Shown here: positions 5,293 through 22,767 of the stretch, in pieces
Numbering within the stretch: the first letter of the stretch is position 1
How the letters are laid out: the number at the start of each line of letters is the position of its first letter
Origin: Pseudomonadota bacterium
GTDB taxonomy: Bacteria; Pseudomonadota; Gammaproteobacteria; Burkholderiales; Casimicrobiaceae
Length of the DNA: 34,507 nt
Direction of reading: 5' to 3'
Assembly (NCBI GenBank): GCA_021784125.1
Contig: JAJXTF010000009.1
Coordinates: 1-34,507, forward strand
The notes under the pieces: generated by a model
Told to the model about the DNA's origin: nothing
Databases searched by the model: none
The model's input: only the letters and a program-made list of their open reading frames with translations
Program-made: the position numbers and the translations under genes

Positions 5293-6144
5293 TCACGGGA
5301 CGCTCCTGCCGATCAGTCCGGCGTGGAAGGCGGTCACGAGCTTCAGCGCACTATCCGGATCGCCCGGATTCAGTTGCAGCACGAGCGTCAGTTCGCCCTC
5401 GGGGTCGACCTCCGGCCCGAGAATTTCGTCGAGCGTTCCGATCACCTGCTCGAAGCGCGTGCTGTGCTCCTGCAATGCGGCCCTTGCGTCGCGTCCAAGC
5501 AACCAGGCGCCCGTCGGCTCGAAATCGAACCGCTCGGTGATCGCCTGCGGGAACTCGTCATGGAGTCGGGCGAGATTTCCTGCTTCCAGGTAGCGGCGCA
5601 GCAGGAGGAACAGGTCCGCCGCATCCTTGCCCTGCGTGTATCGGTGCCGGTCTTTCCACGCCAGCACCTTGAGCACAGCCAGCATCGGCACTGTAACGAC
5701 CTGCGCGATCCGTTTCCCCGGCAAGGCAACCGTCAACGCCGTTGCCGCAGCCTCCGCGTATCCGATCACCGCCATGACCTCGTCGCCAGCAGGCGGCCAG
5801 GCAATCGTGCCGTCGTCGCGCTCGACGGCGCCGAAGGGAATCAGGTCGACCCACCCGAATCTCGTATGTCGGAGCCTGTGTGCCGCGTTCCGGTCCGTCT
5901 CGAACAGGCCGCTCGCAAGCAGCGTCCCGCGAACGGCCGAGAACGCGTCCCAATCGGCGACGGCGAACGCGAGATCCGCGTCGGTGGTTGCACGCTCGAC
6001 CTGGAGGCCGTAGCCGTAATGCAGCAGAAGGTCGCGCGCGAGCGCACCGACGAGCAGGGGGTTCGTCCCGGGCGCCGCCGCTCGAATGTCCGCCACGAGC
6101 TGCGCCAGCCAATCGAGCTCCCGACGATGCGACAGGTCAAGCAT
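5293..6144 (-). CDS. AbiEii-like nucleotidyltransferase (putative type IV toxin)
   Basis: A 283-residue protein of the DNA polymerase beta-type nucleotidyltransferase superfamily. The motif VGALARDL (32-39) is followed by TTDADLAF with Asp55 and Asp57 as likely metal ligands, and WVDLIPFG supplies a likely third acid, Asp100. A downstream helix, VLKVLAWKDRHRYTQGKDAADLFLLL, has the Lys/Arg/Asp pattern of AbiEii toxins. In known AbiE systems the toxin transfers nucleotides to RNA targets such as tRNA acceptor ends and causes growth arrest; that activity here is inference. ATG 6144 overlaps the end of the upstream partner by 8 bp, so translation is probably coupled. It differs from classic AbiEii in its poor hG[GS] motif and could be a divergent subfamily. 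Confidence 0.72.
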   Translation of the reverse strand: MLDLSHRRELDWLAQLVADIRAAAPGTNPLLVGALARDLLLHYGYGLQVERATTDADLAFAVADWDAFSAVRGTLLASGLFETDRNAAHRLRHTRFGWVDLIPFGAVERDDGTIAWPPAGDEVMAVIGYAEAAATALTVALPGKRIAQVVTVPMLAVLKVLAWKDRHRYTQGKDAADLFLLLRRYLEAGNLARLHDEFPQAITERFDFEPTGAWLLGRDARAALQEHSTRFEQVIGTLDEILGPEVDPEGELTLVLQLNPGDPDSALKLVTAFHAGLIGRSVP

Positions 6145-7156
6145 CGGTACGGAACATCTGTTCGAAGACCAGCTTCGCGGTCTCGATGCAGCGACCGTCT
6201 CCGGTTGCCATCAGGTCCGCGTACACCAGAGGCTCGGGTGCCAGCGCAGCGTCCTTTCCGGCGAAGGTCCAGAAGCGTCGATAGATTTCGACGTTGCCGG
6301 CGGCGTCGGTGCGCAATCGCAGATCGACGAGCAGCCGCGGATCGATCTTCTCCGCATAGAAGGTGGCCGTGCCCGGGCGCAGGTAGCGCGTGATGCGGCC
6401 ACCCGCCGGCTCGCCACCGAGCACGGCACCGTACCTGCCGGGGTCGATCGTGTCCCACCACGCCAAGTCGTCGGCCCGATAGCGGCCGAGCAGCAGGCGC
6501 GGTCGCAGCACGCGCGGATAGAACTCGGCCCACTGCTGCAGCAGTCGCTCGCGCTGCAGCAGTCGCCGCCTGCCTCGGGCTTGGGTGACATAGCCCAGCT
6601 CCGGCAGTTCTACCATCACCCAGCCGACGGTCCCGTGCGCCACACCGGCGCGCTGTGCGATCTCCCGATAGGGAAGCTCGACCCACTCGGGATGGCAGAT
6701 CAGCGCGAACAGGACCTGCAGGCCGGTCGCCTGGAATGCGCGTCCTGCGGGTCGCCCAGCGCCCGCGGCGAACTGCGGCTTCTCGCCCTTGACCCAGACG
6801 AGCAGCGGCGGCTGGTCGATGTAGGCATTGCCCGCGGTGTCGACGAACGGAATGCCGCGGGCGCGCAGTTGCTCGGCCATCGGCGGCGTGACGTAATCGG
6901 CGACCAGGAGCCCTTGTTCACCGAGGCGTTCGAATTGGTGGATGACCGCACCCAGCGCGTCGGGACGCAATCCGCGCTTCACATCGGCCGCGTAGGTGAC
7001 CTCGCGGCCGCCGTAACCCAGCCGCACGGTGGCGTCGACGGTGGTCTTGCGCAGCGCGACTGCCCGCCCCTCGACCGTGGTGGCAATGCCGTATCCCTGC
7101 AATCGCGCGAGGGCGGTTGCGAGAAGGTCGTCGGCACGGGCAATTTTGTCCACCAT
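6137..7156 (-). CDS. AbiEi-like antitoxin/regulator (PF09952-type architecture)
   Basis: About 339 residues from ATG 7156. The N-terminal region resembles the restriction-endonuclease-like domain of AbiEi_2 proteins: GGREVTYAADVKRGLRPDAL, then VADYVTPPMAEQLRARGIPFVDTAGNAYID. A central winged helix follows (LQVLFALICHPEWVELPYREIAQRAGVAHGTVGWVMVELPELGYV, given here as the span at about residues 168-212). AbiEi proteins repress their own operon and neutralise the partner nucleotidyltransferase. GTG 7171 is an alternative start, but it would place the promoter palindrome inside the coding region. The start at 7156 coincides with the predicted transcription start, so the message is probably leaderless. 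It overlaps the toxin gene by 8 bp. Confidence 0.72.
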   Translation of the reverse strand: MVDKIARADDLLATALARLQGYGIATTVEGRAVALRKTTVDATVRLGYGGREVTYAADVKRGLRPDALGAVIHQFERLGEQGLLVADYVTPPMAEQLRARGIPFVDTAGNAYIDQPPLLVWVKGEKPQFAAGAGRPAGRAFQATGLQVLFALICHPEWVELPYREIAQRAGVAHGTVGWVMVELPELGYVTQARGRRRLLQRERLLQQWAEFYPRVLRPRLLLGRYRADDLAWWDTIDPGRYGAVLGGEPAGGRITRYLRPGTATFYAEKIDPRLLVDLRLRTDAAGNVEIYRRFWTFAGKDAALAPEPLVYADLMATGDGRCIETAKLVFEQMFRTDA

Positions 7157-7162
7157 TTCGCA

Positions 7163-7190
7163 ATTGTCCACGCTTCGTGGACAATGTCAA
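7163..7190 (-). promoter_or_regulatory. AbiE-like operon promoter with operator palindrome
   Basis: On the minus strand TTGACA (7190-7185) and GACAAT (7168-7163) form a -35/-10 pair with a 16-bp spacer. A perfect inverted repeat with arms ATTGTCCACG (7163-7172) and CGTGGACAAT (7176-7185) and a 3-nt centre spans the spacer and the -10 box. A further half-site, TTGTCCAC, sits at 7146-7153 just inside the gene. The expected transcription start falls at about 7156, which is the ATG itself. This is what one expects of an autoregulated antitoxin operator. Confidence 0.68.
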
Positions 7191-7380: not shown

Positions 7381-7980
7381 CTACCGCTTCAGCTCGGCCA
7401 GCTTGACCCACTCGCCCCGCGAATTGCGGTAGCGCCAGAACTGCCTGCCGTTCACTGCACGGCCGAGGATGACTCGCCCGACGCTAGTCGGCGAGTCGTA
7501 GAGCTTGCCCTTGTAGCTGATGTGTCCATCCCGGCGCAGCGACGCCTTGTACTCGTTGCCCTTCCAGGTCGCGACGAGTCGCACGGGCCGCTCGAAGAGG
7601 CCGGCCAGCACCAATGTCCCCGCAGTCGCCCGTGTCTTCGTGCGGCGGCGATGCGTGACGAACCTGCCGCCCAGGAGCGTCGCCGTCTCGTCGCGCTGCG
7701 ACTCGTCCATCTTCTTCTTGAGCGGGCGGACGAGGTCCTGGGCGCCGCGAAGACGCCCCTTGACCTTGTTGCCCTCGAGGTTGACCACCCGCAAGAGCAA
7801 TGCCTCGAGCGGCCGGATGTGCTCGTCGTCGGTCGTCAGGTACACGCTGAACCGGTCCCACTTCCCCTTGTGGCGATCCTTCAGGTGCTGGTTGACGCGC
7901 GTCATCAGGTTGTTGGCGAGACCGACGTAGTACAGCTTCTCGCCCTTGTAAAGCGCGTAGATGCCGGCGTGCCCCCTGCG
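7381..7980 (-). pseudogene. 5'-truncated GIY-YIG nuclease-family gene
   Basis: The frame contains HAGIYALYKGEKLYYVGLAN directly followed by NLMTRVNQHLKDRHKGKWDRFSVYL, which is a GIY-YIG nuclease core with the catalytic-type GIY and YVG and an Arg/His helix. A C-terminal part follows (LEALLLRVVNLEGNKVKGRL, then HRRRTKTRATAGTLVLAGL and a DGxISYKGKLYDSPTSVGRVILGRAVNGRQFW motif). Homologues as I recall them carry roughly 50 more residues before the GIY motif. Here TGA at 7981-7983 stops the frame six residues before GIY, and the first ATG (7905) lies beyond the active-site strands. It is therefore probably inactive, unless an alternative start is used. The N-terminal sequence is not recoverable in the 68 bp before the next gene. 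Confidence 0.7.
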
Positions 7981-9078: not shown

Positions 9079-10194
9079 TCACGGGCAAGTCGTGCCGTCG
9101 CAGTAGACGACGTTCTGCCAGGTGAACACCTGGGGCGTGCGCGGGTCGATCGTGAGGCGCAGCCATTCGCGCGGCGTGTTGTTCGCGCCCTGCACGGTGA
9201 TGCGCGTCAGGTTGGGGACGGCCTGCGTCGCGTGGATCATGCCCAGGGCGGTCGTCGGGTCGGCGAGCGGCTGGTCGGCTTCAAACTTGTGGGAGTCGCC
9301 GTTGAGCAGCAGCACGGGGCGGCCGAAGGCGACGGCGAGATCGGCCAGCGCCTGCACGAACGGGGTGTAGTTGTCGAGGCCGGCGCCGCCGGGAGCGATC
9401 GCCTCCGAGTCCCACATGTCGGCCTGCAGCCCGATGACGACCGCCTTCGCGCCATCGGCTTCGGCCTGCCCGAACGTACGCTGCAGCCAGCGCAGGTTGG
9501 CCGCATCACGCTCGGTGTATTCCTGCGCCTGCGCAGCGGGATCGGAGAACGGCGCGCTCCACGGCGAGCGGTCGTCGTTCGAGCCGCCGGGCATGTTGAA
9601 GGTCGCGAACACGACCTGCGACTGTTCCCACATCACGTTCTCGACGAACTGTGCGTCGGCCGGATGTGCGGGGTCCCAGGCCTGCGCCTGGCTCAGCACC
9701 TGCTTGCCGCGGCCGCCGAGCGTGTAGCCGGGCGTGGCGAAGAACAGGCTGCGCAGGGCCGCGAGCTCGTTGCGCGGGTAGCCGCTCGCGCCTTCCTTCT
9801 TCTTGTGGCAATCGCTCCATTCGTTGTCCCCGGGCGTATAGACCAGCGGATCCCTGAACTGCGCGAAGAGATCGAAGATCCCCCGGTTCCACGCCGGCTC
9901 CGCAGTGGCCGGCAGAGGGTCGAGGCCAGCGCCGGTGCAGGGCATGCTTCCGGAGTGGATGTCGCCCACGTGCATCACCAGGCGCACCTTGGGATCATCG
10001 TTGATCGAAGCGATGAGCAGCGGCGCCGCGCCGAGCAGCTCCTGGCTGTACGGCCAGTCGCCGAACACCGCCATGGTCATCGGATCGGCCGAGGCCGCGT
10101 TGATCGGCGTCCCGTTGCCAGCATGCGCGGGGTTCTGGACCAGCGCGCTGCCCAACAACATCGCAGCAAGCAGCGAGTTCGTCGTGTTCTTCAT
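9079..10194 (-). CDS. Secreted metallophosphoesterase
   Basis: A 371-residue protein; ATG 10194 is preceded by GGGAG at a 6-bp spacing. The signal peptide ends near AHA (residues 23-25). The calcineurin-like metal motifs are present in order: GDWPY (Asp46), GDIHSG (Asp78, His80), PGDNEW (Asp123, Asn124) and LNGDSHKF near residue 305. The overall fold matches the metallophosphoesterase superfamily, which uses two metals to cleave phosphate mono- or diesters. The substrate is not predictable. The mature enzyme would act in the periplasm or outside. It is transcribed alone: 217 bp separate it from the upstream gene, and a terminator follows. Confidence 0.85.
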   Translation of the reverse strand: MKNTTNSLLAAMLLGSALVQNPAHAGNGTPINAASADPMTMAVFGDWPYSQELLGAAPLLIASINDDPKVRLVMHVGDIHSGSMPCTGAGLDPLPATAEPAWNRGIFDLFAQFRDPLVYTPGDNEWSDCHKKKEGASGYPRNELAALRSLFFATPGYTLGGRGKQVLSQAQAWDPAHPADAQFVENVMWEQSQVVFATFNMPGGSNDDRSPWSAPFSDPAAQAQEYTERDAANLRWLQRTFGQAEADGAKAVVIGLQADMWDSEAIAPGGAGLDNYTPFVQALADLAVAFGRPVLLLNGDSHKFEADQPLADPTTALGMIHATQAVPNLTRITVQGANNTPREWLRLTIDPRTPQVFTWQNVVYCDGTTCP

Positions 10195-10328
10195 GTTGCG
10201 CTCCCTCGTCGAGTGGGCGAGGCGGAGATCGGGCGGCAGCGACCCGCCGGATGTCGACGGTGCCGTGCACGCTTGCGATCCCACCTCACACGACGGGAGA
10301 CTAGCGAGTGCTTGTGACAGGGGAATTA

Positions 10329-10411: not shown

Positions 10412-12472
10412 TCACCAGACCAGCAGCACGCTTTCGCCGTCGACGCGCGTTTCGACCCGCGTATGCAGGCCCGCGACTGCATGCGCGAGCATCGACAGGG
10501 GCGTGTCGAAATCCTCGAGCGTGCGGGTCGTCGCGATCAGCCCGTGCGCGGGCTCCAGACGCTCGAGCGTCACCATCGCCACCCACAGCGGCTGCGGCAT
10601 CGGCGCGTCCTGCGCGATGACGTCGGCGATCCGCCAGAGGCGAACGATGGCGCGCACATGCGCATCGACCGAGTGCACGAAGCTGAGCGCGGCCGGCTCG
10701 CCGTGGTGGAACTTGGGGAGCACCGGCAATCTCTCGATCGGCGTCGAGGGCAGCAGCCAGAGAAGTGTCGCTTTCGACGACCACGCAGGCGCCGTCCGCC
10801 AATCGCCCGCACCGAGCACGCGCGCAACCGTCGCGGCGTCGGCGACCCACTGCACGCGGAAAGGCTCCTCGTCGCGGCCCGCGAGCTCGGTGCGCGCCGC
10901 CGCGATCCCGAGCCAGGCCCCCGCTTTCCACGCGTCGAAACCGATCGACCTCGACGCCTCGGGCTTCGCGTAGCGCGCGAGATCGGCCGCGTGGTTCTTC
11001 GCGATGTAGCCTCCGCCCGACAGCGCCACGGTCGCGATCACCAGCAGCGACACGGGAAGGGCTTGCAGCGGCCGCTCGCGCACGTGCGTCGCATAGGCGA
11101 TCGTCAGCAACGCGATCCACGCGAGCCCGAGCGCCAGGCTCGCCGCGACGTCGGAAAACCAATGGACGCCGAGGTAGATCCGCGAGAACGCGATCGCGAG
11201 GATCGCCACCGCCGCAGTCAGCGCGATCGCGCCTTTCTGCCAGGCGTGCTTGCCGCGGCCGATGAGAGACGCCAGGAAACCGTAGACGACCATGGCTACT
11301 GCAGCGTGGCCGCTGGGGAAGGACAATGCGTCGATTGCCGCGTAATTGTTGAGCGGCCGCACGCGGCCGACCGCGTGCTTCAGCGCCAGCACGGTGAGCG
11401 CGGCGAACACGACGGCGCCGATCCAGTACGCCAGCGTTCGCAGGCGCCGGGTCAGCGCGAGCCACAGCGCGACGATGGCGATGACCGGCACCATCACATA
11501 CGCGCTGCCGAGCTCGGTGATCGCCACCATCAGGCCGTCGCCCCAGCCAGTGCGCAGCGCCTCCAGCGCGTCGTAGACCGAGCGGTCGAGCCGCACCAGC
11601 GGATCGCCGCTGACCACGTCCTCGACGATGCCGAGGAACAGCCACCCCGCAGCGATCAGCACCACAGCCGAGACGAGCAGGACGCCCGATTCGCGCCGCT
11701 CGGGGTCGAGCAGCGCCAGCGTCGCGCGGGCGGCGGCACCGCGTCCCGCTCGCGCCCGATCGACCGCGCGGTCGCGCATCCAGGCGAGGATCGGGCCTGC
11801 GTAGTGGATCGCCAGGCGCGTCACCTGCGCGACCAGCCACAGGCCCGCGAGCAGGACCGCGACCAGGATCACCAGTCGCGAGCTGACGGCCCCTGCGAGC
11901 TGCAGCGATGCGCCGAACAGGATGCCGGGGAGCATGTGCGCCAGCGCCCAGCCGAACGCCGACAGCACGTTCATCGCGTAGAAATGCGCGGGCGCCATGT
12001 TCGACATGCCGGCGATCACCGGCACGATCGCGCGTACGGGCCCGAGGAAACGCCCGAGGAAGACGCTCTTGCCGCCGTTGCGCTGGAAGTACGCCTCCCC
12101 GCGCGCGAGCAGCCGGGGATGCCGGCGCAGCGGCCACATCGCGCGGATCCGCTCGCGATAGTGATGCCCGAGCCAGTAGCTCACGCCGTCGCCGAGGATC
12201 GCGCCGATGACGGCGGCGGCAACTGCGAGCCCGGGATCGAGGGCCTTCAGCCCGACCAGCACGCCGCCGGCGAACACGACCGAGCTTCCCGGCACGATCG
12301 TGCCGACGAAGGCGAGCGCCTCGAGGAATGCCGCGGCAAAGATCGCCGCCAGCGCGAGATCGGGATGCGCCGACAGGTATGCGATCAGCGACTGGACCTG
12401 CGATTCCAAGGCGAAGCGGCACGCCGCAAGGGCGGGTTCGATGCAATGCCGGGCAATGCCGGCGAGGTCCAC
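10412..12472 (-). CDS. DedA - PAP2 phosphatase - LssY C-terminal fusion membrane protein
   Basis: Numbering from GTG 12472 (a TTG near residue 22 is an alternative), the 686-residue protein has three parts. Residues 30-215 are a DedA/SNARE-associated domain with FLEALAFVGTIVPGSS and GRFLGPVRAIVPVIAGMSNM. Residues 265-460 are a PAP2 phosphatase with all three active-site motifs: KHAVGRVRP (365-373), PSGHA (386-390) and SRIYLGVHWFSD (430-441). Residues 505-686 match the soluble LssY C-terminal domain. PAP2 enzymes remove phosphate from lipid pyrophosphates or phosphatidate outside the inner membrane. DedA proteins have been implicated in undecaprenyl-phosphate translocation. It lies 46 bp after the outer-membrane barrel gene and probably shares its operon. 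Confidence 0.87.
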   Translation of the reverse strand: MDLAGIARHCIEPALAACRFALESQVQSLIAYLSAHPDLALAAIFAAAFLEALAFVGTIVPGSSVVFAGGVLVGLKALDPGLAVAAAVIGAILGDGVSYWLGHHYRERIRAMWPLRRHPRLLARGEAYFQRNGGKSVFLGRFLGPVRAIVPVIAGMSNMAPAHFYAMNVLSAFGWALAHMLPGILFGASLQLAGAVSSRLVILVAVLLAGLWLVAQVTRLAIHYAGPILAWMRDRAVDRARAGRGAAARATLALLDPERRESGVLLVSAVVLIAAGWLFLGIVEDVVSGDPLVRLDRSVYDALEALRTGWGDGLMVAITELGSAYVMVPVIAIVALWLALTRRLRTLAYWIGAVVFAALTVLALKHAVGRVRPLNNYAAIDALSFPSGHAAVAMVVYGFLASLIGRGKHAWQKGAIALTAAVAILAIAFSRIYLGVHWFSDVAASLALGLAWIALLTIAYATHVRERPLQALPVSLLVIATVALSGGGYIAKNHAADLARYAKPEASRSIGFDAWKAGAWLGIAAARTELAGRDEEPFRVQWVADAATVARVLGAGDWRTAPAWSSKATLLWLLPSTPIERLPVLPKFHHGEPAALSFVHSVDAHVRAIVRLWRIADVIAQDAPMPQPLWVAMVTLERLEPAHGLIATTRTLEDFDTPLSMLAHAVAGLHTRVETRVDGESVLLVW

Positions 12473-12518
12473 ATCATCGCACGAGCCGGGCGCGATTCCC
12501 GCGCGGCTGAACCGGCCC

Positions 12519-13496
12519 TCAGAACGCGCGGATCAGCGTGATGCCGGCCTGCCGGTACGAGTAGTCGGGGGCGTCGACGTAGCCCGTCGAACGGTTGTAG
12601 CCGGCATGAAACACCAGCCTGAGGTCGGCCGCGAGCGCGCCTTCTGCGCGCAGCTCGGCCATGCGCACCGGATGGGTGTCGCTGCCGTCGATCGTCTCGC
12701 GCCCGGCACCGAGCGCGGCGGCGAGCGTCCAGGCGCCCAGGTGCCGCCGCATCGACACCGCCCCCACCCACTGCCGGTAGCGGTCGGGGTTGAAATACGC
12801 GCCGCCGACGTCGTCCTTGCTGCTCCGGTATTGCCGCCAGCGGAACTCGGCATTGAGGCCCCAGTCCGGGACCGCCTGCCAGATCAGGCGCGCGCGCAGG
12901 TGGCTGCGGTCGTTGCCGTCGGTGAAAGGCTGCCAGCCGGCGAAGCCGATCGCGGTGAAGCGCCCGGCGAAGCTGTGCTCGGCGCTCGCGGCGAACAGCC
13001 CGTAGGCAATGCCGCGCTCGATCGCCTTCTGCGTTTCGACCAGGTCGCCCGCGGCGATCATCTCGAAACCCGTGTCGGCCGAAGGCCTGAGACTCCAGGT
13101 CGCATCGCCGACGGCGCGCGTGTGTCCGGCGACCCGGACCACGCCTGCCTGGGCGTCGATGCCGGCGAGGCTGTTCGGGTCCTGCTTGCGCCAGCGGCCG
13201 ACGATGCCGGCGGCATCGCGGCTCCACCCGGACTGCGAATAGCGGATGTCCTGAACGGTCACTCCGACATGGTCGAAGTACGACACATACGGGTACAGAG
13301 CGCCCGCGCGAAAGCGTGTCGAGTGGAAGCCGTCGGTGTCGCTCGCGACGTCGACGCTGGCGATGGCAGCGACTGCGCCGGTCACGGGCGCGGATTGCAC
13401 CTGCGCGCCTCCGGGCGCGGCCGGATCGGCACGGGCCGTCGCGGTCCAGGCCAGCGCGAGCGCCGCCGCGCAGGCGGCGACCACGCACCGGGTCAC
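12519..13496 (-). CDS. Predicted outer-membrane beta-barrel protein
   Basis: A 325-residue protein. GTG 13496 overlaps the stop of the glycosyltransferase gene by 4 bp (GTGA), showing translational coupling. A signal peptide (CVVAACAAALALAWTATARA) is followed by alternating hydrophobic/polar strands typical of a barrel: YPYVSYFDHVGVTVQDIRYS, FTAIGFAGWQPFTDG and LRLVFHAGYNRSTGY. The chain ends in ITLIRAF, with the terminal Phe expected of substrates of the outer-membrane assembly machinery. It could be the export channel or a YaiO-like partner for the polymer made by the neighbouring synthase; that is inference from position. Confidence 0.72.
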   Translation of the reverse strand: MTRCVVAACAAALALAWTATARADPAAPGGAQVQSAPVTGAVAAIASVDVASDTDGFHSTRFRAGALYPYVSYFDHVGVTVQDIRYSQSGWSRDAAGIVGRWRKQDPNSLAGIDAQAGVVRVAGHTRAVGDATWSLRPSADTGFEMIAAGDLVETQKAIERGIAYGLFAASAEHSFAGRFTAIGFAGWQPFTDGNDRSHLRARLIWQAVPDWGLNAEFRWRQYRSSKDDVGGAYFNPDRYRQWVGAVSMRRHLGAWTLAAALGAGRETIDGSDTHPVRMAELRAEGALAADLRLVFHAGYNRSTGYVDAPDYSYRQAGITLIRAF

Positions 13497-14974
13497 TTCG
13501 TGCCCCAGGACTTGCGCAGCCCGAGGATCTCCGAGAAATAGCCGGCGACGCAGGCGGGCTGCAGGATCAGGCTGTAGACGAAGGCGTAGACCAGGAAGCC
13601 GCTGACGTTGCGGCGCACGTGCAGGCCATTGTGCGCGAACATCTGCGCGCCGACGCGATACATCACGTAGTTGATCAGCAGCGCCATCGGCAGAAGGGCC
13701 AGGGTCATCGGTCCGGCGATCCAGTACACGCCGAACAGCGCCAGCAGCATTCCCGGGATGAAGAACAGCGTGTAGGCGAGGTCGAGCCAGGGGAACAGCA
13801 CGTTCCACCAGACGAACAGCGTCGACATCCGCGGCTTGACCAGGATGCCGGGGAAGCTGCGGAAAGCCTCGATCATGCCGCGTGCCCAGCGCTGGCGCTG
13901 CCGGACGAACTGCTGCAGCGTGTCGGGGGCGTTGGTGAAGCAGCAGGCGTCCTCGGCATGGCCGACGCGATAGCCGCGCGAAAGCAGTGCCCAGGTCAGC
14001 ACGATGTCCTCGCCGACGCAGTCGGCCCAGCCGCCCACCTCCCGCAGTGCCGCGCGATCGTAGATCGAGAACGCGCCCTGCGCGACCAGCGTGCCCTGGA
14101 ACAGCGACTGCACGCGCTTGATCGCGGCGATGCCGTGGAAATAGTCCCATTCCTGCGCCCTGGTCACCCAGTTGCGCCGCGAATTGCGCACCAGCATCGT
14201 GCCGGCGACCGCGCGCGTGTTCGGCGGATCGGAGAGATAGCGTCCGACCAGGTTGCGCAGTGCGTCGCGATAGAGGTAGGAATCGCCGTCGAGGGTGACG
14301 ACGATGTCGTGGCTCGCTTCGGCGAGACCGCGATTGAGCGCCGCCGACTTCCCGACGTTTACGGGCTGTCGCAGCAGGTGCAGCCATTCGTAGTCGTGGG
14401 CCTCGACGATCGCCGCCGTGCGATCGCGCGAGCCGTCGTCGATGACGAACACCTCGAACCTGCCGGGATAGTTCTGGTTGGCGATCGAGCGCAGCGTCTC
14501 GGCGATCGATCCCTCCTCGTTGTAGGCGGCGATCAGGATCGATACCGGGGGGTATTGCTCGATTTCGTGGCGCGCCGGCCTGCGGTCGAGCAGCAGGCTC
14601 ATGATCAGGAACGCGTTCATGAACCCCGGGACGAGCGCGATTCCCGCGACGATGATCACCGCGAGGGCGTGCCCGACGAGCCCGGCGAGCTCGCCGATCC
14701 ACGGCAGCGCGACTGCGACCGACAGCGCGAACCAGCCGATGCTGGCTGCGAGCGCGAGCGCGAACTTGAAGCGGACGCCGACGTACAGCGGCGAATTCGA
14801 CGTACGGTCGTCGCCCGACGCGACGATCCGGTCGTAGGTCGCGTCGGCGACCGGCAGGATGGCATCGCGGGCAGGCGCGACCTCGGAGTCGGAGGCCGGC
14901 AGCGGTTGCGATTCGAACGGCGGCAGGCGCTTGCGCGCCGCCGAATCGCGGGGGTCGTTGGAGTCGTTGCGCAT
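13493..14974 (-). CDS. Processive family-2 glycosyltransferase (polysaccharide synthase)
   Basis: A 493-residue inner-membrane enzyme from ATG 14974, with AGGG 5 bp upstream. After a polar N-terminus, two membrane helices (68-92, 100-128) precede the GT2 domain: SILIAAYNEEGS (145-156), DDGS (179-182), TLDGDS (227-232), the catalytic-base motif GED (321-323) and the processivity motif QRQRW (359-363). Three or more C-terminal helices form the channel. This is the plan of chitin, hyaluronan, cellulose and poly-N-acetylglucosamine synthases. The sugar is not determined from sequence. It is the first gene of a probable operon with the barrel and DedA-PAP2 genes and is divergent from an ECF sigma factor gene. 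Confidence 0.87.
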   Translation of the reverse strand: MRNDSNDPRDSAARKRLPPFESQPLPASDSEVAPARDAILPVADATYDRIVASGDDRTSNSPLYVGVRFKFALALAASIGWFALSVAVALPWIGELAGLVGHALAVIIVAGIALVPGFMNAFLIMSLLLDRRPARHEIEQYPPVSILIAAYNEEGSIAETLRSIANQNYPGRFEVFVIDDGSRDRTAAIVEAHDYEWLHLLRQPVNVGKSAALNRGLAEASHDIVVTLDGDSYLYRDALRNLVGRYLSDPPNTRAVAGTMLVRNSRRNWVTRAQEWDYFHGIAAIKRVQSLFQGTLVAQGAFSIYDRAALREVGGWADCVGEDIVLTWALLSRGYRVGHAEDACCFTNAPDTLQQFVRQRQRWARGMIEAFRSFPGILVKPRMSTLFVWWNVLFPWLDLAYTLFFIPGMLLALFGVYWIAGPMTLALLPMALLINYVMYRVGAQMFAHNGLHVRRNVSGFLVYAFVYSLILQPACVAGYFSEILGLRKSWGTK

Positions 14975-15048: not shown

Positions 15049-15669
15049 ATGCGCTTATGCCCTAAGATTCGCCTTTGGCCCCGCTGGCAACCCGTGGATT
15101 CCGACCCCTTCGCCGCCGAGCTCGAGTCGCACCGCCGCTACCTGCTGCGGGTAGCCCGGCTGCAGCTGCGCGATCAGGACATGGCCGAGGATGTCGTCCA
15201 GGACACGCTGTTTGCGGCACTGACCGGCCGCGACGGATTCTCCGGCCGGTCGAGCGTCAAGACCTGGCTCACCGGCATCCTGAAGCACAAGATCGTCGAC
15301 GTGATCCGGCAGAAGAAGCGCCAGCCGGTGCTCGAGTCGATGTTCGAGGAGGACACCGGACTCGATGATTTCGACCCGCTGTTCCGGGACGACGGCGGCT
15401 GGGCGGCGCCCCCGGCGGACTGGGGCGACCCCGAGAATGCGCTGTCGCAGCGCGAGTTCTTCGACATCATGGAGTTCTGCCTCGAGAAGCTCCCGCCGAA
15501 CACGGCGCGCGTGTTCATGATGCGCGAAGTCATGGAGCTCGACACCGACGAGATATGTAAGGAATTGACGATCACCGCGAACAATCTGTGGGTAATCCTG
15601 TATCGGGCGCGAATGGCACTGCGCGAATGCCTGGACCAGAACTGGTTCGCCGGGCAGGCGCGAGGCTGA
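15049..15669 (+). CDS. ECF-type sigma factor
   Basis: 206 residues from ATG 15049; GTG 15094 (191 residues) is an equally good start, and neither has a strong ribosome-binding site. Region 2 is visible (YLLRVARLQLRDQDMAEDVVQDTLFAAL, then WLTGILKHKIVDVIRQKKR), followed by an acidic linker (FEEDTGLDDFDPLF). Region 4 is LPPNTARVFMMREVMELDTDEI followed by ITANNLWVILYRARMALRECL. This is a group IV sigma factor directing RNA polymerase to a small regulon. The next gene, 33 bp downstream, is a short zinc-type anti-sigma protein, a normal pairing. The divergent polysaccharide operon is an attractive target, but no matching promoter was identified. Confidence 0.88.
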   Translation: MRLCPKIRLWPRWQPVDSDPFAAELESHRRYLLRVARLQLRDQDMAEDVVQDTLFAALTGRDGFSGRSSVKTWLTGILKHKIVDVIRQKKRQPVLESMFEEDTGLDDFDPLFRDDGGWAAPPADWGDPENALSQREFFDIMEFCLEKLPPNTARVFMMREVMELDTDEICKELTITANNLWVILYRARMALRECLDQNWFAGQARG

Positions 15670-16986: not shown

Positions 16987-17673
16987 GTGACGCAGTCCGC
17001 GCCGCGACGCGCGATCAGGAGCTTCGTCCTGCGCCAGGGACGGATGTCCCCGGCACAGCAGCGCGCCTGTGACGAGCTGTTGCCCCGCTACGGCGTCGAG
17101 GCTGCCGTCCCGCTCGACTTCCCGACGCTCTTCGGACGCCGCGCCCCCGTCGTGCTGGAAATCGGCTTCGGCATGGGCGAGACGACCGCCGCGATCGCCG
17201 CCGCGCAGCCCGAGGTCGACTTCCTCGGCGTCGAGATGCACCTGCCGGGGGTCGGCGCGCTGCTGCGCCGCATCGACGAGCAGGGGCTCGCCAACGTCCG
17301 CGTGCTGCGCCACGACGCCGTCGACGTCGTCGCCTCGATGATCGCGCCAGGCACGCTGGCGGGCATCCACGTCTACTTCCCCGATCCCTGGCCCAAGAAG
17401 CGCCACCACAAGCGCCGCCTGCTGCAGCCCGCGTTCGTGCGCGAGCTCGCGCTGTGCCTGGCGCCCCTCGGCTACCTGCACGTCGCGACCGACTGGGACG
17501 ATTACGCGCAGGAAATCCTCGCCACCCTCACGGCCGAGCCGCTGCTCGAGAACAGCGCCGCGGACTTCGCCCCGAGGCCTGCGTACCGCCCGCTGACCAA
17601 GTTCGAGGCGCGCGGACTGCGTCTCGGCCACGGCGTGCACGACCTGATCTTCCGCAGGCGCGTCAGCGCGTGA
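16987..17673 (+). CDS. trmB: tRNA (guanine-N7-)-methyltransferase TrmB
   Basis: A 228-residue protein from GTG 16987, 23 bp after thiG. It has the SAM motif LEIGFGMGE (57-65), [10 protein letters not shown], the diagnostic [13 protein letters not shown] (132-144) and a C-terminal [17 protein letters not shown]. It methylates N7 of G46 in the variable loop of many tRNAs. The downstream gene is convergent and overlaps its 3' end by 11 bp, leaving no space for a terminator between them. Confidence 0.96.
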
Positions 17674-18754
17674 ACACGATGACGCCGGTGGGGCAGAGCT
17701 CGCGCTTGAGGTCTTCGCCGATGCCGCGGTCGAACATGCGCACGCTGTCCTGCACCGCCTGCGGGACCTCGATGGCGGCGAGACCGCTGTCGGCGAGCAG
17801 GCTCGTGAACGCGTTCTCGTAGACCTGCGACAGGTCGGGCTGGGCCGGGTAGACGTCGACTCTCGACAGCCCCAGCTCCGCCGCGAGGCGCTCGAGATAG
17901 GGCGTGTCGAAGACCCATTTGTCGTCCAGTTCGCGCGTCCAGGGCTTTTCGACCGGAGGCCCCAGCCTCGACTGGATGTCGAGCCGCATCGCCCGCATCA
18001 GGCGCGCCAGCGGGCCTTCGCCTGCACCCGATTGCCCGAGGACCGTCAGCACGCGCGCGAACATCGCCACCAGCATCAGCGACCCCGATTCCAGCGGCTC
18101 GACGAGAACGATCCTGCCTCCCGGCTTCAGCGCCGCCGCGACGTTCGCGAGCGCGGCGCGCGGGTCGAGCAGGTGATGGAGTATCGCGGCCCCGATGACG
18201 AGGTCGAAGGTCTGCGGCCGGAAGAACTTCCGGTGCAGGTCGAAACAGAACGTCGTGATGCGTCCGCGCAACTCGTCGCGGGAATCGACGAACCCGGCGA
18301 GCATGCGCAGAAGCTGGGGGGAGATGTCCGAGGCCACGATCTCGGCCTGCGGCAGCAGTCGGCAGGCTGCGAACACGCTCGCACCGCTGCCGGAGCCGAT
18401 GTCGAGCACGCGGCACGGGCGGGCGCGGTCGATCTGCGCGAGGGTCAGGCAGTAGTCGATCAGGTGGGTGAAATCGAGGCGCTCGAAATAGCGCTGGTGG
18501 TAGGTCGCGGCATCGTCGGTGAACTGCCCGGTCACGCCCGCCGGCGACCAGTCCCGGTCGACGATTATCGGGCCGTCGCGCAGCACCTCGACCCCGGGCG
18601 CGAGGATGTGCGCGAACGCGGGGTCGGCGGGGCCGGAACGCCGGCCCGGCGCCTGCGCCGCGAGCGCGCGCGCGGACGCTTCGCTGGGCAGCATCCGTCG
18701 CAGCCTGCGCTTCGCAGCATCGATCACGCGTGCCACCGACGGATTCCTGCGCAT
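17663..18754 (-). CDS. Class I SAM-dependent methyltransferase of glycan cluster
   Basis: A 363-residue protein with a basic N-terminal extension (about 110 residues) and a Rossmann methyltransferase core: VLDIGSGSG (116-124), [11 protein letters not shown] and [16 protein letters not shown], with a later [11 protein letters not shown]. The C-terminal 130 residues contain no recognised motif. It is 16 bp downstream of a GT2 gene and is the last gene of the minus-strand glycan cluster. It may therefore methylate a sugar, or cap a chain end, in the polysaccharide; this is inference. Its 3' end overlaps trmB by 11 bp from the opposite strand. Confidence 0.82.
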
Positions 18755-18770
18755 CGCCAGGCGGCCGGCG

Positions 18771-19865
18771 CTAGGACCTGAAGCGCTTCAGGTAGCCGAG
18801 CGCCCTCCACAGCGGCGACGCGTGGATGCGCTCGAGTTCGCGCCCGCGCTCCAGCGCCAGCGCTTCGGCATGCCGGAACGCCGGCGTCAGCTTCGCGATC
18901 TCGGCGTCGCGCTCGGCGACCAGCCGCTGCGCGTGCGCGAGCGCGTCCTGCAGCACCCCGCTGCGCGCCGATTCGCGCGCGACGATCAGCGCGCGCTCGT
19001 CGACGTGCTCGGCGTACACCTGCCGCGCTTCCTCGCCGCCCTGCGCGTGGCGCGCGCCGTCGACGGCGAGGCGCAGCGGACGCAGTGGGTCGGCAGCGTG
19101 GAAGTCCTCGATGATTCGCGAATACTCCGGGTGCCGTTCGAGCAGCGCCGCCGTCGCGGCCCGGGTCAGCGCGTCGCGCTCGCCGGAGAAGCTGACCGCG
19201 CCCTCGTGGAACACGAAGACGTCGGCGGCGAGCACGCTGCGCCATCCCGCCGCGGCGGCGCGCAGGCAGAAATCGTTCTCCTCGCCGTAACCGCGCCCGA
19301 AGCGCTCGGCGTCGAAGGTGCCCACCGCGGCGAGGCAAGCGCGGCGTATGTACATGCAGAAGCCGACCGCCGTCGGCAGGTCGGCGCGGCGCCCGGCGTT
19401 GACGGTCGCGAACAGCCGGTCGAGCGGGGCGAGCCCCAGCGTCCCCGGCGTGCCGCCGGTCCAGCCTTCGAACGGGTACGAGCAGATCGTCGCGTTGTTC
19501 GAAAAGGGCGTCACCGTGCCGATGTCGCCTTCGCGGTACGCGCAGGCGCGCATCCTGTCGAGCCAGTCGTTGGCGACCTCGGTGTCGCTGTTGAGCAGCA
19601 CGACGTCGCGGTCGGCGTGCAGCGCGAGCCCGCGGTTGACCGTGCGCACGAATCCGAGGTTCCGGTCGTTCCGCAGCAGCTCGACCCTTCCCTGCGCCGC
19701 AAGATCGTCGAGATATGCGACGATGCCGGGCTCGGGGCTCGCATCGTCGATCGCGACGATCGACAGCGGCGTGCGCTGCGCGTGGGCGAACAGGCTCTCG
19801 AGGCAACGCCGGGTTTCGGCAAGACCCCGATACACCGGGACGATCACGTCGACGGTCGTCGTCAC
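18771..19865 (-). CDS. Family-2 glycosyltransferase with C-terminal coiled coil
   Basis: A 364-residue cytoplasmic GT-A enzyme. The N-terminus is VDVIVPVYRGLAETRRCLESLF, with DD at 40-41 and the DxD-type NSDTEV (92-97), then RRACLAAVGTFDAERFGRGYGEENDFCLRA, a typical rhamnosyl- or galactosyl-transferase-like acceptor loop. Residues about 285-345 are rich in Ala, Glu and Arg and are predicted to form a coiled coil. GTG 19865 overlaps the preceding gene's TGA by 4 bp, showing coupling. Donor and acceptor sugars are not predictable. Confidence 0.86.
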   Translation of the reverse strand: MTTTVDVIVPVYRGLAETRRCLESLFAHAQRTPLSIVAIDDASPEPGIVAYLDDLAAQGRVELLRNDRNLGFVRTVNRGLALHADRDVVLLNSDTEVANDWLDRMRACAYREGDIGTVTPFSNNATICSYPFEGWTGGTPGTLGLAPLDRLFATVNAGRRADLPTAVGFCMYIRRACLAAVGTFDAERFGRGYGEENDFCLRAAAAGWRSVLAADVFVFHEGAVSFSGERDALTRAATAALLERHPEYSRIIEDFHAADPLRPLRLAVDGARHAQGGEEARQVYAEHVDERALIVARESARSGVLQDALAHAQRLVAERDAEIAKLTPAFRHAEALALERGRELERIHASPLWRALGYLKRFRS

Positions 19866-21106
19866 GGACTACGCCGCCGTGCCATCCGCCGCGTGATGCC
19901 GCCGATGCCTTCTGCGCGCAGGATCGCGTACACGCGAGCGCGCAGGGCTCTGCCCGCCCGTGGCGAGACCGCGAGGCGCAGCAGTTGCCATGCCGCGCCG
20001 GCACCCACCGTCAACGGGCGAGCTTTCGACCCCATGCCGCCGCGTCCCTCCTCGTACTGTGCGCGCAGCAGCCGGCCCTCGGCGGCGCACCACCCGGCGA
20101 AGCTGCGCTCGCCCAGGGAAGCATCGTAGGGATCGGGGAAGGCGTCGCGCAGGTCGGCGCGGTCGCGATAGAGCCAGCGATGCCAGGGCTCGATCGGCGT
20201 TCCGTCCGAATAGCGCCCGAACGCCCACGGCGTCCGGCTGACCGGATCGTTGTCGGCAACCTCCGTCTCGCGCTCGTACCAGGCGATCAACTCCTGGACC
20301 GAAGCGCTTGCCGCGGCATTCTTGATCGCCATGATGCGATGCGCACCGCTGTCGAAGCCCGTGAAATGATAGAAGCCCAGCGGCTCGCCGTCGACCTGGA
20401 ATCCGGAATCGAGGCTGCCGGTCAGCTCGCGCGTGGTCAGGTTCCAGGTCGCGACGTTGTGCCGCGACGACTTGACGATCGCCACGCCGTCGAAGAACAC
20501 CGGTGCGAAATTCACCCACTTCTGGTCGGTGAACAGGCCGTTCGGAACGTCGGCGCGGCACAGCGCCCAGGTGCGCTCGCCCCACCACTGCGCGAAGCGC
20601 CTCCCCTCGTCGCAGTTCGCCACGCCGATGAAACCCAGGTTGAAGATGCCGTGCTTGAGGCTCGCGACCTCGTTGTCGAGGACCGCGTCGAGCGTACGCT
20701 CCGGCTTGTTCTGGTGCGGCGTCAGCGCGAGGCTGGAATGCGCGAGCGTGCCGAGGATGTCGTCCACGCGCGAGAACAGCACGATGTCGGGATCGAAGTA
20801 CACGACCGTGGCGCAACCGGGCAGCTCGAGCAGCCGGGCGAGCGCGAACGGCTTGATCGCGGTCGCCAGTTCGACGATGTTGTGGGTGAAGCTCCACCGG
20901 TACCAGTCGGGGATGCCCAGCTGCGAGACGTCGAGCACGTCGTCGAAAGGCTCGCCTTCGGTCACCAGCCAGTCCGGCCGGCGGTCCGCCAGCGCGAGGT
21001 GGATGACGGCCTCCGGATGGTGGCGTCGGATGGAACGGCACAGGATGCGCACCTTGGGCAGGTAATTGACCGCTGCGCTGGTGAAGACTTGCAGCGTGCC
21101 GGTCAT
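19862..21106 (-). CDS. GT8-like glycosyltransferase
   Basis: A 414-residue GT-A-fold protein from ATG 21106, which overlaps the upstream stop in ATGA. It reads VFTSAAVNYLPKVRILCRSI at the start, VVYFDPDIVLFS with the metal-binding Asp105-x-Asp107, and KHGIFNLGFIGV and FTDQKWVNFAPVFF in the acceptor region. These are features of the GT8/nucleotide-diphospho-sugar transferase group. It is the middle of three tightly coupled glycosyltransferase genes. The C-terminal 80 residues are basic and may contact the membrane. Confidence 0.82.
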   Translation of the reverse strand: MTGTLQVFTSAAVNYLPKVRILCRSIRRHHPEAVIHLALADRRPDWLVTEGEPFDDVLDVSQLGIPDWYRWSFTHNIVELATAIKPFALARLLELPGCATVVYFDPDIVLFSRVDDILGTLAHSSLALTPHQNKPERTLDAVLDNEVASLKHGIFNLGFIGVANCDEGRRFAQWWGERTWALCRADVPNGLFTDQKWVNFAPVFFDGVAIVKSSRHNVATWNLTTRELTGSLDSGFQVDGEPLGFYHFTGFDSGAHRIMAIKNAAASASVQELIAWYERETEVADNDPVSRTPWAFGRYSDGTPIEPWHRWLYRDRADLRDAFPDPYDASLGERSFAGWCAAEGRLLRAQYEEGRGGMGSKARPLTVGAGAAWQLLRLAVSPRAGRALRARVYAILRAEGIGGITRRMARRRSP

Positions 21107-22767
21107 CGGCGCTCTCCGCCCGCGAGCTGGCGATGGAAATCGACCAGCGTGTCGAGCGCCGCATCGGCGTTCACCTCGGCGCAGAGCCGCGCGCGGTCGA
21201 GGCCGCGCAGCCGCTCCGCCGGGGCACCGAGGTCGAACGCCACGATCGGCAGCTGGAGGCGCATCAGCTCTTCGACGACATAGGAGAAGGTTTCCGGACA
21301 GATCGACGAAAAGAACAGCATGTTGACATGCTGCGCCTCGATCAGGTCGACGAGGTCGTCGCGCCGGTACGGCCCGGTGACGTGCAGGCGCTTCGACTCG
21401 ACGCGGATGTCGAGCCCGCCGATGACCGCGACGCGGACGTCGAGGCCTTCGCGATCGATGCGTGCGAGCATCTCCTTCACGATCCCTGCGCCTTTCTGTT
21501 CGCTGATCTGGCCGACGATGCCGATGGTGAGCGGCGCGGCAGCGTCGGCCCTGGGCAATCGCGCGGGCGCGAAATCGACGCGATGGGGGACCACGACGAT
21601 GCGCCCGGTGTCCAGCGTCGGGTAGGCGCGCAGCAGCAGCTCGCGCGTCGACTGCGAGAAGCAGCGCAGCTCGTCTGCGGCGGCCAGGCAGCGCCCCCAG
21701 ATCGCGCGCCAGGGGCCGATCTCGGTGGGTGGCGACAGCCGCACCCAGCTCGCGCGATGCCGCGCGAGACAGACTGCGCACTCGGAGACTGCCGGAATGC
21801 CGCAATAGCGCCCGTCGGCGTTCAGCAGCACGAACGACGGACACACCTGGAAATAGTCGTTGATCGCGACCGTCAGCCGCAGCCGGGGATTGCCCTCGCG
21901 CAGCGTCGCGAGCCATCCGGCGAAGACCAGCGGCTCGTCGAAGGAGACGGGGCTGTTCAGGAACAGCTCGTCGACGGCGGCGTGCGCGACGACGGCCTCG
22001 AGCGAAAGGAACGAGGAGATGCGGAAGATCCCGCCTTCGTCCGCGCTTCCGGCACCGGGGCCGAGGAACAGCTGCAGCCGGTAGTCGAGCGTCGGCAGAT
22101 TGTAAGTGCACAGCAGCACCGTCGCGCCGGCGGCGAGGCGCTCGTCGACGATCGTTCGCCGATAGACGTTCGCTCCGCCGCCCATGTTGTGGTCGAACAG
22201 GATCGTGACCCGGGTCGCGCCGGCCAGCCGCTGACGCAGCTCGAGCCCGATCGCCGCGTCGTCGAGCGAGGGGGCGAGGTAGTTCTGCGCTTTCGCGCGC
22301 TGCAGGATTCCGCGGAGGTCGCCGCGGCGAAGCCTGCGCGCGACGGCGCCCAGGACGTAGCCGATCCCGCGCAGCCGGCGCCGCCCCGGCCCAGCGTCGG
22401 CGGCCGAGCCGATGTCGAGCTGCGCTTTCCCGCCGTCGCCGTATTCGACTTCGAGGCTCCAGCGCGCGACGGGACTGCGGGGAATGTAGCCGGTGGCGAC
22501 GAAGCCCGACGTTTCGGCGGCGGGGAGCTGCGGAAACGCCGCCTTCACGTCCGCGCGCAGCAGCCCGCAACTGACGGGCAGGCGCGACTCCCAGCCGTCT
22601 CCCGCGAGCACCAGCGTCAGCGCGTCGATCGTCCGCGTCGGATGCGCGACCCAGCCCCAGCCGAAGATCCTCCGCCCGCGTGCAACCATGCGATCGATGC
22701 CGTACTTCAGTCCGGGCTCGCCGTCGCCGCTCATCGCGGCACCCGCCGACCGCGTTGCGACCTGCAT
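21103..22767 (-). CDS. GT4-like glycosyltransferase with N-terminal accessory domain and Cys cluster
   Basis: 554 residues from ATG 22767, with GAGG just upstream (ATG 22734 is possible). Residues about 20-120 form an accessory domain (GRRIFGWGWVAHPTRTIDAL, then SGFVATGYIPRSP) of the kind seen on some polysaccharide glycosyltransferases. The GT-B part follows: FDHNMGGGANVYR (191-203), a four-cysteine cluster Cys309, Cys322, Cys330, Cys333, GIVGQISEQKGAG near 435 and the donor-site CPETFSYVVEELM with an E-x7-E pattern. Retaining GT4 activity is expected. It is 13 bp downstream of the EEP-family gene and overlaps the next gene in ATGA. Confidence 0.8.
   Translation of the reverse strand: MQVATRSAGAAMSGDGEPGLKYGIDRMVARGRRIFGWGWVAHPTRTIDALTLVLAGDGWESRLPVSCGLLRADVKAAFPQLPAAETSGFVATGYIPRSPVARWSLEVEYGDGGKAQLDIGSAADAGPGRRRLRGIGYVLGAVARRLRRGDLRGILQRAKAQNYLAPSLDDAAIGLELRQRLAGATRVTILFDHNMGGGANVYRRTIVDERLAAGATVLLCTYNLPTLDYRLQLFLGPGAGSADEGGIFRISSFLSLEAVVAHAAVDELFLNSPVSFDEPLVFAGWLATLREGNPRLRLTVAINDYFQVCPSFVLLNADGRYCGIPAVSECAVCLARHRASWVRLSPPTEIGPWRAIWGRCLAAADELRCFSQSTRELLLRAYPTLDTGRIVVVPHRVDFAPARLPRADAAAPLTIGIVGQISEQKGAGIVKEMLARIDREGLDVRVAVIGGLDIRVESKRLHVTGPYRRDDLVDLIEAQHVNMLFFSSICPETFSYVVEELMRLQLPIVAFDLGAPAERLRGLDRARLCAEVNADAALDTLVDFHRQLAGGERR

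Follow-up and report, generated by a model that had tools for sequence, protein, structure and literature searches.

DedA-PAP2 proteins in print and the layout of the window protein

Proteins in which a DedA membrane domain and a PAP2 phosphatase domain share one chain are already in print, and so is the idea that such a chain dephosphorylates a lipid and then flips it. Sit et al. noted many DedA-PAP2 architectures (PMC9876793), and Todor et al. proposed that the PAP2 domains in fusions may dephosphorylate pyrophosphate before flipping (PMC10127716). Here we describe a protein that adds a third domain, LssY_C, to these two and is encoded on a contig of a Casimicrobiaceae bacterium (JAJXTF010000009.1, assembly GCA_021784125.1, positions 1 to 34,507; this whole stretch of 34,507 nucleotides is called the window). 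Comparison with its relatives showed that the PAP2 part has been lost repeatedly but the DedA and LssY_C parts have not. As judged from these sequences, the phosphatase is probably the expendable part of the chain, which we regard as the most useful new point of the analysis.

Among the closest described systems is PA4011 of Pseudomonas aeruginosa, with an N-terminal DedA and a C-terminal PAP2 domain in one chain (Sposato et al., PMC12893004). Deletion of PA4011 left the minimal inhibitory concentration of fosmidomycin unchanged and gave fewer colistin-resistant mutants, and PA4011 could not replace PA4029, the flippase of undecaprenyl phosphate (C55-P); those authors concluded that it is likely not involved in flipping C55-P back and suggested "phosphoregulation or membrane lipid remodeling" (PMC12893004). 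The PA4010-PA4011 operon is reported to be PhoP-regulated, with PA4011 up at low magnesium, and a table entry in the PA4011/PA4010 rows of the same source reads "peptidoglycan recycling" (PMC7916210). For comparison we used a 437-residue DedA-PAP2 protein of P. panipatensis, assumed to be of the PA4011 type from architecture and length, which differs from the window protein in having no LssY_C. Moreover, functional metagenomics found phosphatase activity in two DedA-domain proteins without a known phosphatase domain (PMC6355987); therefore, activity of a DedA-bearing protein alone would be no proof of PAP2 catalysis.

Concerning the third domain, the literature searched contained no paper with both LssY and PAP2 and none with "LssY C-terminal", and its one paper on LssY of Legionella concerns a secretion locus, lssXYZABD (PMC6959600). 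This LssY gave the Pfam family LssY_C its name and has that domain in common with the window protein. As to secretion genes of the lssB/lssD type, Pfam matched no type 1 secretion family in the 20 window frames searched, which are a subset of the window genes, the genome beyond the window lying outside this search. Legionella LssY itself presumably also carries DedA and PAP2 domains.

The window protein is read from a single minus-strand frame with three domains over their Pfam cutoffs, which bears out the preliminary description of DedA, PAP2 and LssY_C in one protein:

10412..12472, minus strand: whole frame, 686 codons from GTG 12472 (likelier start TTG 12409, 665 residues)
11924..12295, minus strand: VTT/DedA domain, residues 60-183 (Pfam PF09335, 71.9 bits, cutoff 33.9)
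11087..11428, minus strand: PAP2 phosphatase domain, residues 349-462 (Pfam PF01569, 58.6 bits, cutoff 27.2)
10973..11062, minus strand: extra membrane helix, residues 471-500, predicted from the structural model, hydropathy and loop charges
10559..10891, minus strand: LssY_C domain, residues 528-638 (Pfam PF14067, 36.6 bits, cutoff 25)

A chance or artefactual fusion was rejected, as the layout is common to 126 other aligned proteins (125 distinct) and, in comparisons with four copies from the same genus, no domain reaches a ratio of nonsynonymous to synonymous substitution rates (dN/dS) of 1 (DedA 0.14-0.33, PAP2 0.15-0.47, LssY_C 0.25-0.70).

GTG 12472 is the earliest possible start of the frame. 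By comparison with relatives, TTG 12409 is the likelier one, because in G291 and G283 the matching codon is closely preceded by an in-frame stop and because a conserved "HP" proline is preceded by 13-16 residues in 87 of 126 relatives (14 from the TTG, 35 from the GTG). Against the TTG counts that G284 and G289, the nearest relatives of all, have CTG at this codon. Four genus relatives retain a GATGATG that directly precedes the fusion (window 12469-12477), even though neither ATG is in the reading frame of the fusion.

Repeated loss of PAP2 between constant DedA and LssY_C parts

The three-domain design is common and not new: in a sample of 274 genomes from the class, 95 have LssY_C. Stretches were taken for 60 LssY_C places of this survey, mostly the best-scoring, and gave 52 frames above 600 residues, five stand-alone LssY_C proteins (L032-L035 and L072) and three frames cut by contig ends (L046, L049, L073). 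These 52 frames, the window protein and 74 of 80 named loci (among the matches listed) make up an alignment of 127 long proteins, from which six named loci with a short frame at the match start were left out (L099, L122, L124, L140, L152, L166); L123 is identical to L062, leaving 126 distinct proteins. Pfam found VTT in 53, LssY_C in 53 and PAP2 in 46 of the first 53 aligned (alignment A1). Named carriers include, among the matches listed, Paraburkholderia, Caballeronia, Collimonas, Mesorhizobium, Azospirillum, Pseudomonas and Desulfacinum, and the window's own genus has the fusion protein in 8 of 22 genomes (one split over two contigs, one cut by a contig end). On a contig labelled as an FCB-group bacterium (L097), the three-domain protein groups with deltaproteobacterial ones, by transfer or mis-binning.

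In addition, 17 proteins outside the 126 were chosen for an odd frame length or a missing LssY_C match and are thus not an even survey. Among them, PAP2 is degraded in G012 and G007, G231 is a complete three-domain protein and G254 has DedA only; G173, G186 and the second copy of G202, which have all seven PAP2 residues and a partial LssY_C region, were counted on neither side (G186 and the second G202 copy run to the contig end).

All three PAP2 motifs of the window protein are present, as the preliminary description had said, and fit the patterns Kx6RP, PSGH and SRx5Hx3D:

11354..11380, minus strand: PAP2 motif C1, KHAVGRVRP (residues 365-373)
11306..11317, minus strand: PAP2 motif C2, PSGH (386-389)
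11150..11185, minus strand: PAP2 motif C3, SRIYLGVHWFSD (430-441)

With the seven key residues in place (K365, R372, S387, H389, R431, H437, D441), the phosphatase of this copy is probably active. The closest solved PAP2 protein is PgpB of B. subtilis (phmmer E 5.5e-13), which has the same fold (VIA Z 23.7 to 5jki over 195 residues, root-mean-square deviation 2.4) and a similar sequence but, as a chain of 222 residues, is too short for DedA or LssY_C; next comes A. aeolicus LpxE (VIA Z 16.3). NCBIfam gave 48 bits to the undecaprenyl-diphosphatase SepP (NF047884) and 42.8 to UptA, both below their equivalog cutoffs of 250.

Across the family, the seven PAP2 residues are complete in 77 of the 126 distinct three-domain proteins, and in 42 of them one or more of H389, R431 and H437 are gone; in the most degraded PAP2 parts, the counts for single residues depend on the alignment. 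A tree made by a quick method from the DedA and LssY_C columns only puts this loss of PAP2 residues at a minimum of 15 changes, six of which are forced by well-supported branches. Such counts carry no direction, and we infer that intact PAP2 is the older state because recovery of all seven residues is hardly to be expected. One clade of 22 Paraburkholderia/Caballeronia/Burkholderia rows is PAP2-dead throughout, and the window protein and its nearest tree row, L056, have a complete PAP2. A single contig of Paraburkholderia sp. BL21I4N1 carries two different dead-PAP2 three-domain copies, L168 and L171, with motif residues HPSHGFD and QPSHGYD.

PAP2 is also found to be missing altogether. Frames of 421-455 residues in G203, G010 and G072 read as DedA, a further hydrophobic helix and LssY_C. 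The LssY_C match passes the Pfam cutoff with 33.9 bits in G203 and 27.5 in G010 and stays short of it in G072, at 20.4 bits (E 4e-4). By alignment, G112, G229, G257 and G144 resemble degenerate versions of these PAP2-less proteins; Pfam matched no LssY_C in the three scanned, G112, G257 and G144. In contrast, the seven residues are all present in each of the 34 DedA-PAP2 proteins that have no LssY_C: 30 proteins of one genus and the P. panipatensis protein (31 of 31, none with an LssY_C region), G162, again of this genus, and G272 and G073 (no Pfam match to LssY_C in the last three). The median ratio of PAP2 to DedA change was 1.39 in dead Paraburkholderia proteins, 1.52 in other dead ones, 1.27 in all those not classed as dead and 1.0 in the alpha/Pseudomonas set of the latter, which is suggestive of faster PAP2 change in dead lineages. 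Repeated phosphatase loss beside LssY_C was not found in print in the literature searched, among the matches listed.

The DedA part is constant in another set of residues. According to Todor et al., COG0586 proteins of E. coli and B. subtilis depend on four essential residues, and any one of four E. coli DedAs suffices for viability (PMC10127716). These residues, Glu39, Asp51, Arg130 and Arg136 of E. coli YghB, align with Glu51, Ser63, Arg141 and Arg147 of the window protein:

12320..12322, minus strand: Glu51, equivalent of YghB Glu39, first re-entrant helix (E in 127/127)
12284..12286, minus strand: Ser63, in the place of YghB Asp51 (no acid in 126/127 three-domain proteins)
12032..12052, minus strand: Arg141 to Arg147, equivalents of YghB Arg130 and Arg136, second re-entrant helix (R141 in 127/127; R147 is R in 124, K in 3)

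The preliminary description had called the DedA signatures intact, which holds for Glu51 and the two arginines and fails for the second acid: of the YqjA/YghB-type COG0586 features, the window protein has the basic pair Arg130/Arg136 and only half of the acidic pair Glu39/Asp51. Asp95 is identical in 127/127 as well. Position 63 is A in 43, T in 38, S in 37, V in 6, I in 1, G in 1 and E in 1; the sole acid belongs to L104 (metagenome-assembled genome Proteobacteria bacterium JA6.bin32), whose PAP2 set is complete.

The Asp51 equivalent is likewise non-acidic in E. coli YabI (Thr) and in the P. panipatensis DedA-PAP2 protein (Val), and a DedA tree places the window protein together with 14 of 16 other three-domain rows, YabI, the P. 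panipatensis protein and one Mesorhizobium frame in an 18-row clade (support 98/97), apart from YqjA, YghB, DedA and C275, a stand-alone DedA encoded in the same genome as the window protein. Three-domain rows L037 and L038 fall outside this YabI-containing clade, and a larger quick DedA tree warns of long branches, YabI among them. Like the window protein, YabI has the equivalents of Glu39 and both arginines, with an acid in the GD motif; unlike it, YabI is a short protein of 254 residues. YqjA, YghB and other COG0586 undecaprenyl-phosphate flippases share the Glu39, Arg130 and Arg136 equivalents with the window protein, which differs from them by the missing Asp51 equivalent and by its separate clade. 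YabI is reportedly among the four viability-supporting E. coli DedAs and, if so, the missing Asp alone does not rule out carrier transport. Fold searches barely cover the DedA part, as PAP2 matches fill the list.

The LssY_C domain keeps W558 and W613 in 127/127 three-domain proteins. The AlphaFold2 model of the window protein (built with 53 sequences) has a predicted local distance difference test score (pLDDT) of 90.8 and a predicted template modelling score of 0.80. Loop charges, counted as Lys and Arg over Asp and Glu, are 3/0, 2/0 and 2/1 on one side of the membrane and 3/4, 0/1, 2/1 and 1/1 on the other; from the helix count in the model and the positive-inside loops, the PAP2 active site and LssY_C are predicted to lie on the same, periplasmic side. 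In this topology the last PAP2 helix would go back inside and helix 471-500 lead out, and therefore LssY_C would stand on the face of the phosphatase site.

The stand-alone LssY_C proteins (L032 3766-5118, L033 716-2023, L034 7106-8470, L035 7812-9185, L072 4278-5597), of 435-457 residues, suggest that the domain is made for the periplasm because they start with signals read as lipoprotein type: four of five show the lipobox pattern, which L072, with LMTGC, does not fit in the form applied. Pfam found in them LssY_C alone, at 158-167 bits (window protein 36.6). Ten frames beside L034 and L035 were scanned and gave no shared partner gene: L034 stands near an RTX-repeat protein (the LssY_C gene comes directly after its gene), a LysR regulator, an FMN reductase and a pirin, and L035 near phospholipase-D-like, glycogen-phosphorylase-like and META-domain proteins; three of the ten had no match.

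The LssY_C part modelled alone (505-686) has a pLDDT of 94.5. A sequence-profile search of the PDB gave nothing for it up to E 1, and Foldseek no match at E<=0.001. The top VIA rows are AMPK regulatory and adenylate-sensor fragments (Z 5.1-4.8), YugN (4.9) and Chk1 KA1 (4.8), with the BamC N-terminal domain lower (4.2), all in a score range common for VIA, and such a list is compatible with other folds.

Gene neighbourhood and the rest of the genome

Upstream of the fusion lie two genes on the same strand and a divergent regulator:

12519..13403, minus strand: upstream gene, no Pfam or NCBIfam match, 46 nucleotides from the fusion frame (109 with the TTG start)
13493..14974, minus strand: membrane family-2 glycosyltransferase (GT2), PgaC/IcaA-, NodC- and BcsA-like by Pfam, PDB and NCBIfam, below equivalog cutoffs
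15049..15669, plus strand: extracytoplasmic function (ECF) sigma factor, divergent from the glycosyltransferase

For the middle gene we use the provisional label YaiO. PgaC/BcsA-like synthases polymerise directly from UDP-sugars without a lipid carrier. The GT2, the middle gene and the fusion occur together in four of the eight genus genomes having the fusion (window, L192, L193, L195), and in G294 the GT2 lies about 9 kb from the fusion on the same contig; the GT2 and middle-gene neighbours are absent from the stretches examined around G291, G290 and G286. In 140 wider loci, 13 shorter than 8 kb, the middle gene had no match and the GT2 three weak partial ones of 92-122 residues. The fusion gene follows a polysaccharide synthase, as first described, but the linkage was seen in part of the genus only, and a polysaccharide operon as general support for a function was rejected.

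Elsewhere in its own genome there are one BacA, a second PAP2 protein of 222 codons and two further DedA-domain frames, C275 keeping Asp51; DUF368 gave no match in this assembly, which is 94.85% complete. Therefore, the fusion is not needed for housekeeping steps. Other features of the window are:

5293-7171: AbiEi/AbiEii type IV toxin-antitoxin pair
7381-7905: RAMA-domain protein
9079-10200: weak Metallophos match (19.6 bits, cutoff 21.5), downstream of the fusion
17663-22767, same strand as the fusion: cluster of a methyltransferase, a GT2 and a group 1 glycosyltransferase

Candidate functions of the three-domain proteins

Our preferred explanation, with a probability of about 0.5, is an accessory lipid transporter of the YabI/PA4011 DedA type whose lasting partner is the periplasmic LssY_C domain, PAP2 being an optional module between the two. 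We read PAP2 as optional because DedA Glu51, Asp95 and Arg141 and LssY_C W558 and W613 are invariant while PAP2 is dead or absent in relatives. In the window copy, the PAP2 site on the periplasmic face would dephosphorylate a membrane lipid, the DedA part would then carry the dephosphorylated product, or a related phospholipid, across the membrane, and LssY_C, held by the extra helix next to the phosphatase face, may bind a partner or gate the transporter. A bolder form, which we consider rather doubtful, is that DedA and LssY_C are a two-part lipid-transport unit with a periplasmic docking or gating domain, that lineages switch PAP2 off or cut it out, and that a dead PAP2 would serve as a lipid-binding antechamber.

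Several observations weigh against an optional phosphatase with LssY_C as the lasting partner. The window PAP2 set is complete and its dN/dS is 0.15-0.47; therefore, the phosphatase is under selection in this lineage and may be central. LssY_C, with 0.25-0.70, is the fastest-changing domain, a poor fit to a core partner, and it has no weighty fold match (best VIA Z 5.1). Moreover, the seven PAP2-less rows need at least five changes on the DedA tree, of which only one is forced by well-supported branches; 31 of the 34 proteins without LssY_C come from one genus, so that a loss of PAP2 only beside LssY_C rests on few lineages; and G012, outside the 127, has Asp in place of Glu51.

The preliminary description had proposed that dephosphorylation and flipping are coupled in one chain. 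Given the seven residues and the predicted periplasmic site, this is plausible for the window protein, but such coupling is not conserved in a family where 42 of 126 are dead and others have no PAP2. It had further proposed undecaprenyl carrier recycling, with PAP2 making the monophosphate from undecaprenyl pyrophosphate outside and DedA flipping it back. The complete PAP2 residues, an active site put on the outer face by helix count and the weak NCBIfam similarity to SepP and UptA are consistent with this, and Sit et al. (PMC9876793) and Todor et al. (PMC10127716) raised the link for DedA-PAP2 fusions in general, as does the table wording for PA4011/PA4010 (PMC7916210). We nevertheless find the claim unsupported and consider it unlikely. 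The NCBIfam scores stay under 250, the DedA part belongs to a YabI-like clade without the second acid, and PAP2 is dead or deleted in many relatives; the genome has its own BacA, second PAP2 and canonical DedA, C275, and the neighbouring synthase is of a type generally known to do without a carrier. In line with these points, PA4011 deletion had no fosmidomycin effect and PA4011 did not rescue the flippase mutant (PMC12893004).

Remodelling of glycerophospholipids or lipid A is an explanation that overlaps with the preferred one and that we hold as possible, although the odds are against it: PAP2 would act on phosphatidylglycerophosphate, phosphatidate or a lipid A phosphate, and DedA would scramble or return the product. 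PgpB and LpxE as the nearest solved PAP2 proteins point in this direction, as do the PhoP regulation of PA4010-PA4011 with the rise of PA4011 at low magnesium (PMC7916210) and the suggestion of Sposato et al. for PA4011 (PMC12893004). However, the substrate does not follow from the nearest fold, PAP2 enzymes are promiscuous, and the loss of PAP2 in relatives counts here too. A polymer-export unit made of the fusion, the GT2 synthase and the gene between them would agree with their shared strand, tight packing and co-occurrence in half of the fusion-bearing genus genomes; it is very improbable, as the trio dissolves around G291, G290 and G286, has no counterpart in the wider loci beyond the three weak GT2 matches, and includes a synthase without need for a lipid carrier.

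The existence of DedA-PAP2 fusions has been brought forward as genomic support for a role of DedA proteins as undecaprenyl-phosphate flippases (Sit et al., PMC9876793; Todor et al., PMC10127716). This support is weaker than it appears, because nearly all the fusions examined have a DedA of the YabI kind without the second proton-binding acid, and because the LssY_C-bearing ones are often, by sequence, without a working phosphatase. The dead versions of Paraburkholderia and Caballeronia and the PAP2-less DedA-LssY_C proteins are natural experiments on the function of DedA without the enzyme.

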